The position numbers were made by a program, and so were the translations under genes. Positions 512 to 27,190 of a stretch of 64,000 bases of DNA are shown here, in pieces. Source of the DNA: Branchiostoma lanceolatum (taxonomy: Eukaryota > Chordata > Leptocardii > Amphioxiformes > Branchiostomatidae); assembly GCF_035083965.1 (NCBI RefSeq), contig NC_089724.1, positions 17,850,410 through 17,914,409 of the forward strand. The letters run 5' to 3'. How positions within the stretch are numbered: position 1 is the stretch's first letter; each line of letters begins with the position of its first letter. Below the pieces are notes generated by a model. The model was not told where the DNA came from. It worked only from the letters and a program-made list of their open reading frames with translations, and searched no databases.

Positions 512-3500
512 CTGTGTTGGGGTCAGCTCATTTCCAAAGTCAACAATAATAGTGTTGCCTTCATAAGTAACCTGAAACATTGACAATGGAACCATTTCAA
601 AAAGTAGGTTTGCTAGGTCTCAGTAATTGAGTATTAGGTCCCTGATTCAAATTTATTAAACAATGGAAGCATAGCAGCTACATTTGTACTGTCTATGCTA
701 ACATCATTTGATATCATAACAGTACAGAGAAAATATCAGGATTTCATACCAATAAATTGATTATTGAATAAAATGAAATCATGGTTCTAAGTTCTAACAA
801 TTTTACATCATCTTGATACTATAGTATGTTAAGTGTAATCTGTTTAACTCTGACTAAAACATTACTACACAACAACACATTGGGTAAAAAAAGAAGACCA
901 AAATGCCTTACTGCTGCTGTCTCTGTTGGGGGTTTGTCCACTATGTCAGGAACTATCCCGTTCTTAAGAAAGGCATCAGCAGCCATGTTTCCAGTCAGCT
1001 CCACTGGGACACTGGATACAAGGATTATAGAAGTACAGGAAAGCAAGGAGTTGAGAAACATTCTGGTTGCATATTACACCACAGAGCTAGTCGTAAACTA
1101 TATGAGATTACTCGAAAAATGGTACATATACCAAATGTGTTGTACTGTTATGTCCTGTGGAAATGACTAATCATATCCAGTTGTTTGAGTAATTGCTTTT
1201 TTGGTGTAACTAATTTTAATGGTTTAACAATAACATGATAACTATTGTTTGAGTCAAAGTCAATACTGTTATCATGTATGGTACTACTGGATAAAGAGTT
1301 ACTGGTTATGGGAAAGCTGGTGCATGCTAAAAGAGAGGAATAAGAGAAATATCAAGAATATGGGGACACCTGTGAAAGCATGGAAAGAAGCTTGGATGAT
1401 AGAGAAAGAATAGATACATGTATGAAATTTGCATTTTTGGCAGTTTCTGTCAGATGATTTGGGCAATTTTTAAACATGTACTTGTATCAACATGCAAGTG
1501 CTCTTGGCTGGTGTATTCTTCTTCAAGAAACATGGAGGTTATATTTTAAACAGCGTTTGTGTGTGACGTTATATAAAAAAAAAGCTACTAGGGGGCCCAA
1601 TCCTCCTACACCTCTCCAAGAGCTATCTGCCACTCAAACATCAAGACCACAGCATGTCCAGAATGCGAGGTATCAAAACTGGAAGTTCTGCTGCAGTATC
1701 CCAGAACGTTGCAGGGGCCCATTACTGAACTCAACCTTCATTTCCCCCATACCTACCCACATACCAAATATCATTAGGATCCATCCACAGTTTCTTGAGT
1801 ACAGAACTATCCACTGATACACACACAGGCAAACGGCACCTACAACTTTCTTGGCGGAAATAAGGAAATTCTATACATGCAAAACATGTAATCTATGGCA
1901 GGTGGAACATGTCAAACAAAAACCAAACATCCAAATAAGGGGCTAATTTGCATAACTAATACGAAAATGCCACAACTCCTCAGTGGTAGATGATGGAAAT
2001 TTCATACTTGCGACATGTTAGTACTAGCAAGGAAGTGAACATCACCATGCATAAAATCTACAAAAGCTCTGAATATTTCATGGAGGTGAAAGGTTACCGC
2101 ACCAAACTCCAGTATAGCAATTACCTTGACCTTGACCAATTCAAATTTGACCTTTAGCAGATTGGTGCCCATCAAAATCTAAAGGTTAATGACGTTACTA
2201 TTGGAGAATTGGGCCACTTCAGGACACCATCACCAAGACATCTCCAAAATCAATACAAAATGCATTCATTTTAGAGCTCTATGCAGAAGCTGGTAAAGGT
2301 TTAATTATGATTTAATTGCAATACTAATTGGAATCACCAGGGGGTGTTTTGTCCTCTCACCTGGCCCCAGGCTTTGAGCCTGACTTTCCCATCAACCTTC
2401 CCACACTGCCCTGGCTCCCTGAAAAAGATCATCACAAAACAGGGAAAGGGGATTCAAAGAACATAGGCATAGGTATAGGTATAGGAGGAATGATACCACA
2501 AAGTAAATGCAATTCAATAATAACAAAAGTGAGAATGAATCCAAAGAATATCAAATCCATTTTTGTATTTATAATGCAGCGACGTGTTATGCTAAATATA
2601 CGCAAAATGCACCGATTATGCTTATTTCTTATTACCGGTAATCAGTTTACCGTATATTCAATGGGAGATTTAGAACAGTTTGGGTTTAAGTCACTTTAAG
2701 TAATGCAGCAGATTATGCTCTACGGCAAAAAAGCATGCAGGTCCCCAACAATGTGCTTAATTGCACAAGGCTTCACTGTTCATTGCTCTACCATGTTTTT
2801 TTTTCATATCAATGTAATAACAATTACATGCAACATTTAAGAAGTTAACAAATGATGTCAAGTAACATCTTTTGTTGTTTCAGCAAGTGTAACAGTGGGG
2901 GTTCAAGCGCCTCCAACTGACCAGGCTAACTGGTCGTGACCTTTTAGCCTAGAGGTTAAGGCGTGCGTGCCTGTGATCTGGCCTCCGGTTTCGGCGTGAG
3001 TTCGAATCTCGGTTGGGATCACTTCTGTTTCTACTCGCTCCTTTGATTTGTTTCACTGGTTCCCACACCGGCCCTGTGAGCCTGGCAAACGTGTGCCACA
3101 CAGGGAAGATCGAACTCGGAGATTCGAGGACGAATCTTAAAAAGAAAAGGGGGAGTAGTGTAACAGTGGGGGTTCAAGGGCCTCCAACTGACCAGGCTAA
3201 CTGGTCGCGACCTTTTAGCCTAGTGGTTAAGGCGTGCGTGCCTGTGATCTGGCCTCCGGTTTCGGCGTGAGTTCGAATCTCGGCTGGGATCACTTCTGTT
3301 TCTACTCGCTCCTTTGATTTGTTTCACAAGGACTTTAGTCTGTTGTTGGAATATTCTTTGTTAAGAAGTTGATAAATTATCGGTTTCAACTAAAGACAAA
3401 ATCATAGATGATGGAGGATAAGGGAAGTGGTATCTATTTGACCTATAACCCACTCCCCCTTCATATATCATATGTATTAAACGTTATGTTATTGTTGGGT

Positions 3501-4046
3501 TACAAGGTAACGCCCTCCTCACGGCTATGCAGTAAAATCATGGGCGATTGGAACAGCACACTTGCTTTAAGCAAGGAGGTTATATAGTCTATATAACCTC
3601 CTTGCTTTAAGCATGTTAGATTCCATCATGACAACCATGCTGCAAAATCTCACCTTCCACAAACCTGGTAACCATTCCTTACTCAGGGTTGTTTTACCGG
3701 ACACAGTCCTACAAAAGCAGAGGTTTTCTTTCTGAGAGCTCGAGCCTATCTTTCCGTAAAAATATTCCCTGGCGCGCGCTAATGAACTCGGCGGGCGGAC
3801 AACACTCCCAGCACCGTAGAGATACCTCTCACGGAGCTCACCTTGTTGCTGGTGTTGTTGTTGTTGCCCTTCCAAAATTGGAATATGAACGGCCCTGGCC
3901 CTTCCTCCAAACTGTCTGCCCCTCCTCTGTGCTTCCTCCTCTTCCTGATGATGATCTCGGAATATCAGCCGAGGAGTTCTCGTGAGAAGTCGGAAGAGCC
4001 GAGAAATCCCGAGAAGTACCGAAACCATCGCGAACGAGTTGCGCAT
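512..4046 (-). CDS. PEBP/RKIP-family protein, 5' part (partial, runs off left edge)
   Basis: Three exons in phase: 3842-4046, 912-1003 and 512-571, joined at GT-AG boundaries with phases 1, 0 and 0; the rest lies left of the window. Exons 2 and 3 together read VPDIVDKPPTETAAVTYEG and then VDFGNELTPTQ, the conserved N-terminal stretch of the phosphatidylethanolamine-binding family (Raf kinase inhibitor protein type), which binds phospholipid head groups and kinases. Exon 1 gives an Arg/Leu-rich, acid-poor leader (MRNSFAMVSVLLGISRLF) followed by an acidic, Arg-rich and Gln-rich stretch. The leader resembles a mitochondrial presequence, which is inference. Start: first in-frame ATG at 4046; the ATG at 4028 is the alternative and may be the real one, because an NRF1-like promoter site overlaps the first. 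The ligand-binding pocket residues are outside the window. Family call is strong; subfamily and localisation are unknown. Confidence 0.72.
1575..1860. repeat. Dispersed GGGGGCCCAA repeat, copy 1
   Basis: Shares ordered blocks with 36635-36985, 51530-51895 and 54865-55165: GGGGGCCCAA, then CTGCCACTCAAA, then ACCACAGCATGTCCAGAA, then GGAAGTTCTGCTGCAGTA, then CATACCAAATATCA and an ATCCATCCA block. In this copy and the fourth the end reads CTTCTTGGCG. Class is unknown; no coding capacity. Confidence 0.6.
2945..3009 (+). promoter_or_regulatory. Pol III-like A and B boxes in left terminal repeat
   Basis: TAGCCTAGAGG at 2945-2955 fits the tRNA A-box pattern, and AGTTCGAATCT at 2999-3009 fits the B box. 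The region between reads like D-arm, anticodon and T-arm sequence, but the acceptor stem does not pair well, so this is tRNA-like and not a tRNA gene. Confidence 0.55.
3216..3280 (+). promoter_or_regulatory. Pol III-like A and B boxes in right terminal repeat
   Basis: TAGCCTAGTGG at 3216-3226, a better A-box match than in the left repeat, and AGTTCGAATCT at 3270-3280 with the same 54-base offset. Both sets of boxes are therefore intact in the two repeats. Confidence 0.55.
3569..3607. repeat. Perfect 19-bp inverted repeat (hairpin)
   Basis: Arm AAGCAAGGAGGTTATATAG at 3569-3587, one loop base, then its exact reverse complement at 3589-3607. The arm sequence recurs in part near 9590-9610 and 14075, so it is probably a dispersed fold-back family. 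Confidence 0.7.
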
Positions 4047-22800: not shown

Positions 22801-25800
22801 ACCATTCAGGACAATGCACAGACATAGACACAGACCTACCGACAGATACATATATACAAGCGAGAACAATGGCATTGTGTCCTCTTAAACTACTGGTAAA
22901 TTGTACTCAATCACTGGTGAAAGGTAGTGGATGCTACCTGAAACATCTGACCATTTACAAAATTTATCCAATTGCTTGAGTAACCTTTGTATTGTGTATA
23001 TGAATCTTATTACCTCGATGTGCTGGCATAACTGTATAGCAATGGAATAAGCAAAGGCTAAATGACCACAAGTAATCTAAAATCACATGCAAGACACATA
23101 CCTGACAGCAGGCCCTTGGAAAGCAAATCTTTCAACCCAGAATTTCTCCGTTTATGGAATCGGAAGGAGACTTCAGGATTCATAAACTCTTCCTCATTGA
23201 GACGGTTCCTTATCATCTCTACTAAGACAACTATTTGCAATTCTTTTGCCAGGTGGAGGATGTCTGCAAGTGGCAAGCCCTTCTCCTCCAAGTGTCCTGT
23301 GTACAGGAATTCAAGGCAATGCTGGAACACTTTGGGAAGAACATTGGGATTTAGAGTCACAAAGGTATGCAAGGTTGGCCGCTCTGACTCGAGAAAAGGA
23401 TCACTTCCATTCGCCAGATGAATGGAATGAACGACGGAATGTTCGAGGATGTGGCTTGGGAAGCCATGGAAGTCTGTCGTGCCATTTCCATTGGCATCCC
23501 CTTGGCCTAGCAGCTGGCTTTTTGTCACATTCAAATTGGAAGTCCTTGATGAGCCATTTTCTACGGAGGGGTCATTGTCAAGGCGAGTTGTGGATGGGTC
23601 CTTCTGATTGGTCAGATCTTGTGACAGATCCATCATAAAGAGGTCTTTGAAGAAAGGTGAGGCAGCGACAAGGAAGACTTTGTTGGTAGGAATCCTGACA
23701 CCTTGGGCCAGGAACGTTACGTCGCTGCAGATAGGGTTGTGGAAGAAGTCCCTGAGCTCCTCCACGTGTGTGTTTGATGGCACAGTGATGATTGGCAGCG
23801 CAGGAGGAGGGGGAAGGAAGGGAAGCTGCAGCAGGGGTTTCTGCACCTTCTTCAGGTTGGACTTCCAGAACAGGAATGATCGCCGGGCAAGGAGAGCTGC
23901 CCTGGTCACGTTGTGGAACAGGTCGCGGACGCCATAGCTGTCCACGACGCTTGTTTCGTAGTAAGGAATGCCGAGTTCTTTAGCTACGTTTCTTCCTTCA
24001 TCAGGCATCATGATGTCTGATGGTTTGACTTTTCTGCAAGCAAGAAAGGAGCAAGTTGATTGTAATGTTGACAATATACTTTAATAAGTGTTGTTTGGCT
24101 ATACACATGTATAACATATACAATGTATCACACATTTTCCAAACTCACTGAGATTGCAATTCAGCAAAGAAAATAAAAGATTTGTCTCCATCCAAATTCA
24201 AGCTACCAGTATCATTTCAAGGATTAATAGTGCAACAGTGCAATATACATGAATGGTATTGCTATATCTACCGAACACACCTTGCAAAGGGCCCTTTGTG
24301 TTTGTTGTACAAGTCCAGGTCTGCATATCGGAGATCTGCCTGGCAGCCCGTGAGAATGATAGGTGCGTGGGGACAGAACTGCTTGATTTCCGGGTACCAC
24401 ATCAGCATGGCGTGCTTCAGAGACGTTGGGTTGGCGATGGAGAAGCATAGCAACACCACGTCTGACCTAGAAAAGTGGCTGGATTCAGTGAAGTGGAAAT
24501 TTAGTGCCACAATGTCAGGTTCCAGCCTCAGCAAACTGCATCTATACTAACCATTGTATGTCACAGGAAGCTACATGTACACCAGTGTAACAGACCAGAA
24601 CAAACCCCTGGCTAGAATATACCTGGGTATGTTCAGGCCAGGGGTATAGTATTGGCCTATTACACCAGGCACTAGAACTGCCCTGTTGCCATGCATTAAA
24701 GGTCTTTTATCTTAAACAAATGGTACCTCCAATTCCAAAGTAACCAAGACAATGACATTCATGCCAACAATGTCTAATAATGTTCATGAGATGACCATTC
24801 TGTGCAGTTTAATTTTCAAACTTCAATTTCATGTTTTCTTTTTTTATTCCATGTCATCAAAAGCAGCATGCTGATTTCTGTCATTTTTTTGTCATAGTAT
24901 GGCAGTTCTAGTAAGGTTATGGGTTAGTTATTTGACAGTACAATGTACATATTAGTTGTTGACATATGCTACTGAAACTACTAGTGAGTCTGTCAGCACA
25001 TGCACTTTTAAAGGGGAAAGCTGGGGAGAAACAGACTAACTCTATCATGACAGTCCAGACAGTTCCCTCTACACTGAGGCTCTGAACTATGCCAAATATT
25101 AGTGCAATGTTACTTACTGATACTTGTGAGTGGACAACGTCTGTGCATCATTCACCAGGAAGGTCAAACAATGCCAGAACTTGACTAGTACTAGGAGAGA
25201 CTTGAGCGTGGCATTATTGAAATGAAGACTTTGTGATACGATATGTTTACTGGTCTGATAATACACTGGTTGGGTGGTCTGCTTAAAAGAGGTCTAGAGA
25301 GCTATTTTCACTTAGCGTTATCACCCAATGTAATTGATCAGCAGATTCTTGGATGAAATCTGCCGAACATGTGATTTCTGCAGTCAAATTTTTTAAATTG
25401 AATTTGGAAATTTGATACCAGTAATGCATACATTTGCTGTACGTTGAGAGTGGCTCTGGTGCATGGCTAATGCAGCTGTGGTATGGATAGGAATTATCTG
25501 TATGCATGGCATGTGCATGAAATATTAACAACTGTTACAGGGCTACACATTTGCCACATACATCTGACACAATTTATAATGATCAAACTCTCACTGAGTA
25601 TTCCCAACCTTTCGCAGATGCCTATCTTCTGTTCACAGCTGTTGTGTTGGCTGCTTAAGTTGCTAAATTTTTCATTTGTAGTAGCTTTTATAGTACCCGC
25701 TTCCAAAAATTGATAATCCTTAGATAGTAATTCATGAATAAGCACATGAACATGTAAATTTGCTGTAGAAACAAACATAATAAACTAAATGCACAGCACA

Positions 25801-27190
25801 TAACACAAATGGAACACATAACATACACCAAATACAGTCTGTACCTATCAATAATGACTGACATAAAAAGGCAATCAGAAACAGCAGACTTCACTGTTTT
25901 GACAATAAGCACCAAATATACAGAAACTGCAGTATGGAAACACACAAAGACGAACATACACATGACAATACACTGACTGCTACATCACCCTTACTGTCCT
26001 TGGTACTGAACTAGAGCTACACCTCCCTTACACTGTCCTTGGCACTGAATGACTGCTACACAACCCTTACTGTCCTTGATACTGAATCACATTCACAGCT
26101 ACACAGCTCTTACTGTCCTTGGCACTGAATGACAGCTGTCCTTGGTACTGAATCACAGCTTCACCATCCTTACTGTCCTTGATACACACCATGACAATAC
26201 ACTGACTGCAACATCACCCTTACTGTCCTTGGTACTGACCTAGAGCTACACCTCCCTTACATTGTCCTTGGTACTGAATCACAGCTACACCATTACACTG
26301 TCCTTGGTGCTGAATCACAGCTACACCATTACACTGTCCTTGGTGCTGAATCACAGCTACACCATTACACTGTCCTTGGTGCTGAATCACAGCTACACCA
26401 CCCTTACTGGCCTTGGTACTGAATCTCAGCTACACACCCTTACACTGTCCTTGATACGGAATGAATGCTACACCCCCTTAACTCTCCTTGATTCTAAATC
26501 ACAGCTATACTACCATTAGGGTGAAGTAACAATGATACATATTAACAGATGGAAACACACAAAGCCATAACAGACACCCATTCAGGATTATCCTACCTTC
26601 CATAGGCAAATCTCCTGTCCTTCTCATGATCACCGAAGGTGTCCCACAGGCGCAGAGACACATGCACACCATCCACTATGTCATAGGAGCGCTCCAATAT
26701 CTGTGAAGATTTGCAATTACCAATTAATGGCTTCAACAGTGAATTATCAAACATTGGCAAGAGATGTATTTACACTACACATTCTGTTGGTACATTATGT
26801 ATGCGATGATAGAATTGGTAAGGTAAGTACAGTTCAATACCAAAACTGCTACCATGTTTACAGTACGTCCCTGCACTTAATTGTTACCTGATGACTAGCC
26901 TCCCCCCTACTGTAGTACTTACACAACTGTGTGGCCCAAGGGCTATAGAAACGGAGTCGCGCACCTCCCTAGACAATGACAGGATTGTACCTAACACTTA
27001 CTTGTGGAGAGATCTGGTATTGGTCGATGGCCCACACTGTTGGCACATGGGTGGCCAGCAGCTGCTGTTTAGTTATAGGAGTGGCACAGGCACGTGCACA
27101 TATGAGCCGTGTCTTCCCGACAGCGTTGTCCCCCACCACTACACACTTTACAAGCTCCACCAGGTGAGGCCGCTGATTCAGTAGAGCCAT
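19880..27190 (-). CDS. RHOBTB1/2-type atypical Rho GTPase, complete
   Basis: Nine coding exons in transcript order: 27002-27190, 26597-26700, 24281-24466, 23102-24033, 22577-22695, 22111-22261, 21521-21609, 20541-20689 and 19880-19991; all GT-AG, 676 aa. The N-terminal Rho-like domain has P-loop GDNAVGKT (residues 20-27), but [10 protein letters not shown] replaces the usual DTxGQE and GCQADLRY replaces the base-specificity motif, as in vertebrate RHOBTB. A proline-rich stretch ([10 protein letters not shown]) follows, then a BTB1 domain split by a long insert (about 240-460), then BTB2 (about 466-560), then the conserved C-terminal region (HRWPPIWYLKERD). Family role: CUL3 ubiquitin-ligase adaptor. 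Start: ATG at 27190, just inside an acceptor (TTCCACTGCAG) at about 27203; an upstream ATG at 27265 would need that intron retained. It ends KKWCF. Probably the single orthologue of RHOBTB1 and RHOBTB2. Confidence 0.94.
20274..20512. mobile_element. MITE family 1, copy 2
   Basis: Full-length relative of the copy at 115-345, with both terminal repeats (AAGGCCACATC.. at the left, ..GTGTGGCCT at the right) and the same interior, including TTTGGTGCACACA and AAGTTTTCACCCCAGCCTT. It ends only some 29 bp before a RHOBTB exon boundary (20541) and lies in the intron. Confidence 0.75.
24582..24669. repeat. 88-bp imperfect palindrome with flanking direct repeats
   Basis: The stretch TGTAACAGACCAG..CCCCTGGC reads almost the same on the opposite strand (TGTAATAGGCCAA..CCCCTGGC), giving a near full-length hairpin. 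TACACCAG occurs at 24578-24585 and at 24661-24668, overlapping the palindrome ends. It may be a miniature element; class unknown. RHOBTB intron. Confidence 0.55.
25970..26515. repeat. 36-bp minisatellite
   Basis: Tandem units beginning ACTGTCCTTGGTGCTGAATC and ending CACCATTAC. Three near-perfect units lie between about 26297 and 26404, with decayed units of similar and longer period on both sides. The open frame across it is an artefact of the 36-bp period. RHOBTB intron 2. Confidence 0.75.

Follow-up and report, generated by a model that had tools for sequence, protein, structure and literature searches.

A 439-bp element occupies positions 2888-3326 of the window, by which we mean the whole 64,000-nucleotide stretch of DNA analysed here. 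It consists of two 168-bp repeats with TG...CA ends (LTRs), placed around a 103-bp interior (3056-3158) and bounded by a 4-bp TSD (Table 1). The two LTRs differ at four positions (2908 C/3179 G, 2937 T/3208 C, 2953 A/3224 T and 3013 T/3284 C), corresponding to 97.6% identity and 2.4% divergence. No closed, ATG-started open reading frame (ORF) of at least 29 residues is present on either strand of the element.

Immediately before the element, the flank at 2861-2887 resembles a splice acceptor (TTTTGTTGTTTCAG) and then runs into the TSD. Roughly 1.4 kb downstream of the element begins the open frame of an ORF with NZF and AnkUBD domains, which we take to be a ZRANB1-like gene and which suggests an animal host. 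An open frame on the minus strand at 23061-24080 contains a BTB domain and is presumably RHOBTB-like. Six block pairs of 129-300 nt, lying 6.6-7.2 kb apart and sharing 95-98% identity, connect 38035-41666 with 45283-48269; an LDL-receptor class A ORF is found in each copy, and the arrangement is probably a tandem gene duplication. The window also contains a degenerate tandem array at 25946-26508 (units of ~36 and 75 nt) and GC-rich tandem arrays at 51116-51422 (11-, 20- and 31/32-nt units).

Table 1. Features of the element and its borders, in window coordinates.
Feature	Position	Strand	Basis
Left TSD, CAAG	2884-2887		Sequence
5' LTR, 168 bp, TG...CA	2888-3055	+	Repeat search; 97.6% identical to 3' LTR
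Palindrome over putative start, T4 run and A-box start, 5' LTR	2920-2953		Sequence; 12/17 pairs
tRNA-like region of 5' LTR, 84 nt	2938-3021	+	Rfam RF00005, model positions 1-71 of 71, 17.6 bits
T4 run, sole one (+ strand) in 5' LTR; last T is first A-box base	2942-2945	+	Sequence scan
A box of 5' LTR, TAGCCTAGAGG, AGG for YGG	2945-2955	+	Pattern search
B-box core of 5' LTR, GTTCGAATC	3000-3008	+	Pattern search
PBS, 15 nt, complementary to tRNA-Glu 3' end	3057-3071	+	Pairing, 15/15
Hairpin CCCTGTG...CACAGGG, inner stem TGGCA/TGCCA	3072-3105	+	Folding
Hairpin AGATTCG-AGGA-CGAATCT, perfect 7-bp stem, before PPT	3120-3137	+	Sequence
Polypurine tract AAAAAGAAAAGGGGGAG, 17-nt purine run, then TAG, then 3' LTR	3139-3155	+	Sequence
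3' LTR, 168 bp, TG...CA	3159-3326	+	Repeat search
Palindrome over putative start, T4 run and A-box start, 3' LTR	3191-3224		Sequence; 14/17 pairs
tRNA-like region of 3' LTR, 84 nt	3209-3292	+	Rfam RF00005, model positions 1-71 of 71, 21.3 bits
T4 run, sole one (+ strand) in 3' LTR; putative Pol III terminator	3213-3216	+	Sequence scan
A box of 3' LTR, TAGCCTAGTGG, full match to TRGYNNARNNG	3216-3226	+	Pattern search
B-box core of 3' LTR, GTTCGAATC	3271-3279	+	Pattern search
Right TSD, CAAG	3327-3330		Sequence

The LTR pair and the interior

A sequence-only reading of this DNA had described a miniature LTR element (TRIM) made of two 168-bp direct repeats with four differences and flanked by the 4-bp TSD CAAG. 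Our analysis bears out each of these points and confirms the observation of a gene-less LTR element, in which a TG...CA pair, a TSD, a primer-binding site (PBS) and a polypurine tract (PPT) occur without coding capacity. The LTR pair, TSD, PBS and PPT jointly mark an LTR retrotransposon, as opposed to a SINE or segmental duplication. The insertion had also been called recent, and of this claim the near-identity of the LTRs stands; their 2.4% divergence is a relative measure with no clock and gives no age because no rate is attached to it.

The element occurs once in the window, where the remaining matches to it span just 13-16 nt. Among 14 families of direct repeats (at least 60 nt, within 8 kb), judged by eye from spacing and content, we found no second TRIM. 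Exact-pattern scans of viral and prokaryote contigs returned 0 related loci, a result that says little about animal genomes.

One spacer base separates the 5' LTR from the PBS, which pairs at 15 of its 15 bases with the end of CTCCCGGTGTGGGAACCA, given as the 3' fragment of tRNA-Glu-TTC-1-3 (PMC7555719). When the PBS was compared with 25 human tRNAs, tRNA-Glu matched over 15 contiguous bases and the runner-up over 4. This pairing substantiates the PBS-like segment that had been noticed after the left repeat. The polypurine tract earlier placed before the right repeat is present as a 17-nt purine run, but it does not exactly abut the LTR because TAG intervenes.

Two hairpins lie between the PBS and the PPT. 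The first is the 34-bp stem-loop of the earlier reading, to which we add a second, inner stem; it folds at -16.8 kcal/mol (z -2.57), and 4 of 200 shuffles fold equally well or better. The 103-bp interior as a whole, which also includes the perfect-stemmed second hairpin, folds beyond its shuffles (z -3.24; 1/200 as good).

Membership of the tRNA-SINEs (a single unit, an A-rich or repeat tail, a variable TSD) is contradicted by the paired TG...CA units, the TSD of 4 bp and the lack of a tail. A related reading, that two copies of a tRNA-derived SINE lie here in tandem, would account for the 168-bp unit and for the tRNA-like promoter described below. Against it stand the TG...CA ends, the matching 4-bp TSD, a PBS and a PPT close to the junctions where they are expected and the fact that neither unit has an A-rich tail; this reading is disfavoured, and we give it almost no credence.

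tRNA-like sequence, T4 runs and palindromes in the LTRs

Each LTR contains an 84-nt segment, as long as a class II tRNA, that a covariance search aligned to the full length of the Rfam tRNA model RF00005. The alignment thus extends over the whole model in both LTRs, but the scores (17.6 bits in the 5' LTR and 21.3 in the 3' LTR) fall below the gathering score of 29. Taken over all families, the E-values come to 0.098 and 1 for a search of 801 bases and to 7.9 for a search of the whole window; the latter, with E allowed up to 10, lists a tRNA match in the 3' LTR alone and leaves the 5' LTR unlisted. Simple division of 7.9 by 4227 families gives about 0.002 for tRNA alone. No Rfam family reaches its gathering threshold anywhere in the window, and the 5S rRNA family is absent from the matches in both the window and the element searches. 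ARAGORN reports no tRNA when run with its defaults; lowering the score to 80% brings up both LTRs among 34 places in the window, so the relaxed setting does not discriminate. The sub-threshold Rfam scores and the default ARAGORN result speak against a functional tRNA gene. In a comparison of the segment with the 25 tRNAs (3' LTR only, 200 mononucleotide shuffles per tRNA), Leu-AAG, Met, Ser-GCT, Leu-CAG and Trp give z-scores of 5.0-5.4 and the others score less, the lowest z-score being 1.1; the isotype of the segment is ambiguous.

An A box and a B box in tRNA order had been reported in each repeat, and we find them in both LTRs, where the A-box pattern and the B-box core that follows it span 64 nt end to end (starting at 2945 and 3216). 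The B-box consensus is GGTTCGANTCC, from which the AGTTCGAATCT of the element departs. Two choices in the box search favour the Pol III reading: the strict box pattern was written after the sequence had been seen, and the loose A box, from the A-box consensus, was trimmed to 11 bases since the 12th, a G, mismatches. The looser A...B pattern has three plus-strand matches in the whole window (2945, 3216 and the overlapping 3224), all within the LTRs, and none on the minus strand. Whole-window shuffles (n = 50) yield a mean of 0.7 matches; when the 3' LTR was dinucleotide-shuffled 5000 times, 2 of the shuffles contained the pattern.

The high Rfam E-values over all families would fit an ordinary TRIM whose LTRs resemble a tRNA by chance. 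The whole-window E-value for tRNA alone, the rarity of the A...B pattern among LTR shuffles and the z-scores of the five top tRNAs all speak against this, and we regard a chance likeness as very improbable. On this evidence the LTR segment can be called tRNA-like, and we infer that it descends from a tRNA. The segments fold like their shuffles (z -0.28 and -0.31; 73/200 and 66/200 as good). Given this lack of extra folding and the absence of a default ARAGORN tRNA, the segment is better explained as a promoter than as a tRNA.

In both LTRs the single plus-strand T4 run overlaps the A box by one base, its last T opening the box (2945 and 3216), and no further T4 is found on the plus strand between 2946 and 3212. 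The T4-free stretch is weak as evidence: T4 is likewise missing from 1629 of 5000 shuffles and from 299 of 1275 window segments of matching length, and exactly one T4 run occurs in 2356 of 5000 LTR shuffles. Each T4 run lies within a palindrome, and the copy in the 3' LTR is the window's top gapless even-centred 34-nt palindrome. This palindrome was noticed first and ranked later, a choice that also favours the Pol III reading, and the ranking covers gapless even-centred palindromes only, so that the spaced repeat at 3576-3600 lies outside it. The 5' LTR copy is two pairs poorer because of the differences at 2937 and 2953. Judged by palindrome and A box, the 3' LTR seems nearer to the state of the element at insertion.

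The spaced repeat belongs to an inverted repeat at 3562-3614, whose perfect 12-nt arms, separated by a single base, lie at 3576-3600; by eye it extends further. Its minus strand scores 37.1 bits with the let-7 precursor model, below the gathering score of 53.5, and it is probably a palindromic repeat and not a microRNA gene.

Relation to Helenus

TRIMs whose LTRs carry tRNA-derived sequence have been published under the name Helenus (Kojima, 2024; PMC10886601), which is also used in a meeting report (PMC12859917). Helenus elements are described from fungi, from plants and from six phyla of animals and measure 311-1263 bp; the animal members have a 4-bp TSD, bivalve families include tRNA-Glu primers and the PBS regions of animal members are similar to Gypsy elements only (PMC10886601). 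Most have a box A with TRGCY and YGG, the box B GGTTC is called conserved, and their Pol III function is stated as not experimentally validated (PMC10886601). The novelty that the sequence-only reading had implied for a tRNA-like promoter in animal TRIM LTRs is thus lost to this 2024 publication.

The element is a new example of the published Helenus kind, and the earlier interpretation was right in kind. Like Helenus, it is an LTR pair, short (439 bp, within the published size range) and without coding capacity. Both LTRs contain tRNA-like sequence, which is sub-threshold here and agrees with the Helenus definition by likeness. The PBS lies one base after the LTR and the PPT three bases before the 3' LTR; the TSD of 4 bp (CAAG) is as in animal members, and the tRNA-Glu primer is as in the bivalve families. 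The Helenus box A is found as TAGCC and TGG in the 3' LTR, whereas the 5' LTR has TAGCC but AGG. Box B differs, reading AGTTCGAATC in both LTRs (AGTTC) in place of the usual GGTTC, a trait that is typical of Helenus and not part of its definition. What is new is the T4 run whose last T opens the A box and which sits within a palindrome; the main text of PMC10886601 has terminators for Cassandra only and no T4 run beside the A box.

Lancelets are absent from the species table of PMC10886601, and the words Branchiostoma, amphioxus and lancelet are absent from its main text; a family entered in its supplements or in Repbase may exist. Among the literature matches listed, none names a lancelet TRIM in its title or the start of its abstract, and PMC10886601 is the only one on elements with tRNA-like LTRs. 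None of five sequence words of the element occurs in the papers searched. If the host is a lancelet, cephalochordates would join the published range of Helenus.

A candidate Pol III cycle

The LTR pair, TSD, tRNA-Glu PBS, PPT, lack of an ORF and tRNA-like segment in both LTRs can be read directly from the DNA. We consider it probable that the element is a Helenus-type TRIM, non-coding and mobilised in trans, with LTRs that carry a decayed tRNA-derived Pol III promoter. The helper is most likely an LTR retrotransposon of the Gypsy type.

Pol III usually starts 11-20 nt upstream of the A box. In the proposed cycle, it would initiate at that distance before the A box of the 5' LTR, pass through the rest of that LTR and the interior, which lack T4, and terminate at the sole T4 run of the 3' LTR. 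The predicted RNA of ~283-292 nt would carry the same 12-21 nt (R) at both ends, since transcription would begin 11-20 nt ahead of the A box in one LTR and stop on the A box's first base in the other. Terminal R would then serve minus-strand transfer, host tRNA-Glu would prime at the PBS, helper enzymes would synthesise the cDNA, and the helper integrase would insert it and make the 4-bp duplication. Signals recognised by the helper would be likeliest in the hairpins between the PBS and the PPT, and the tRNA-like part would act as a promoter and not as a folded tRNA. A putative transcript at 2930-3216 gives a z-score of -5.22 (0/200 shuffles fold as well), and in its predicted fold the ends pair via the palindrome because R is palindromic. 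The folds of the interior and of this transcript may have a role in the cycle.

Several features count against such a cycle. The T4 run of the 5' LTR sits just past the supposed start and must not stop the polymerase there, and the 5' LTR, the would-be promoter, bears a worse A box than the 3' LTR. The tRNA scores are below threshold, ARAGORN calls no tRNA at default settings and the B box departs from GGTTC. The low scores and the substituted A box of the 5' LTR would also suit a TRIM transcribed by Pol II from a TATA-less promoter, with the tRNA-like segment as an inert remnant of a SINE inserted in the LTR; the published model for the origin of Helenus is indeed a SINE insertion into a TRIM LTR (PMC10886601). 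However, box order and spacing are kept in both LTRs (which is not independent evidence, because the two LTRs are too alike), TATAWA, AATAAA and ATTAAA are all absent from the plus strand of the element, and the single T4 of each LTR is placed as the R region of a Pol III transcript would require. We consider this Pol II reading unlikely.

The preferred reading, a Helenus-type TRIM with a Pol III transcript, combines one start region, one T4 stop, an R of 12-21 nt and a tRNA-Glu PBS, and so offers a testable model for a Pol III transcript in an LTR cycle. The layout also models how a gene-less parasite can exploit a helper without having to share LTR sequence with it. Its readable Pol III R-region layout is the element's main worth and can be checked across all Helenus families. 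More tentatively, and with more doubt than confidence, we suggest that tRNA-type TRIMs in general replicate by a Pol III cycle resembling that of Cassandra, where a single promoter has its T4 terminator downstream of the start but ahead of the A box, one LTR acts as promoter and the other as terminator, and palindromic R copies are able to pair at the RNA ends.

Cassandra is a plant TRIM of 565-860 bp with a 5S rRNA-derived Pol III promoter and a terminal redundancy of 18 bp, and is called the only validated lineage of the kind (PMC10886601). The parallel that had been drawn with it holds up, and tRNA-like Pol III boxes are present in both LTRs of the element. Both would be TRIMs whose LTR houses a Pol III promoter, and the 18-bp redundancy of Cassandra compares with the 12-21 nt predicted here. 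They differ in that Cassandra is 5S rRNA-derived and found in plants, whereas no 5S match occurs in the element. Ajax of nemerteans is likewise an animal TRIM with a small-RNA promoter and a similar length (421-434 bp), but its promoter derives from 5S rRNA and its TSD is 5 bp (PMC10886601). In the description of biv-TRIM given in PMC6934838, a canonical PBS is not clearly found and tRNA-like LTR sequence is not mentioned; like the element, biv-TRIM is an animal TRIM with a short interior (77-80 bp) that contains inverted repeats.
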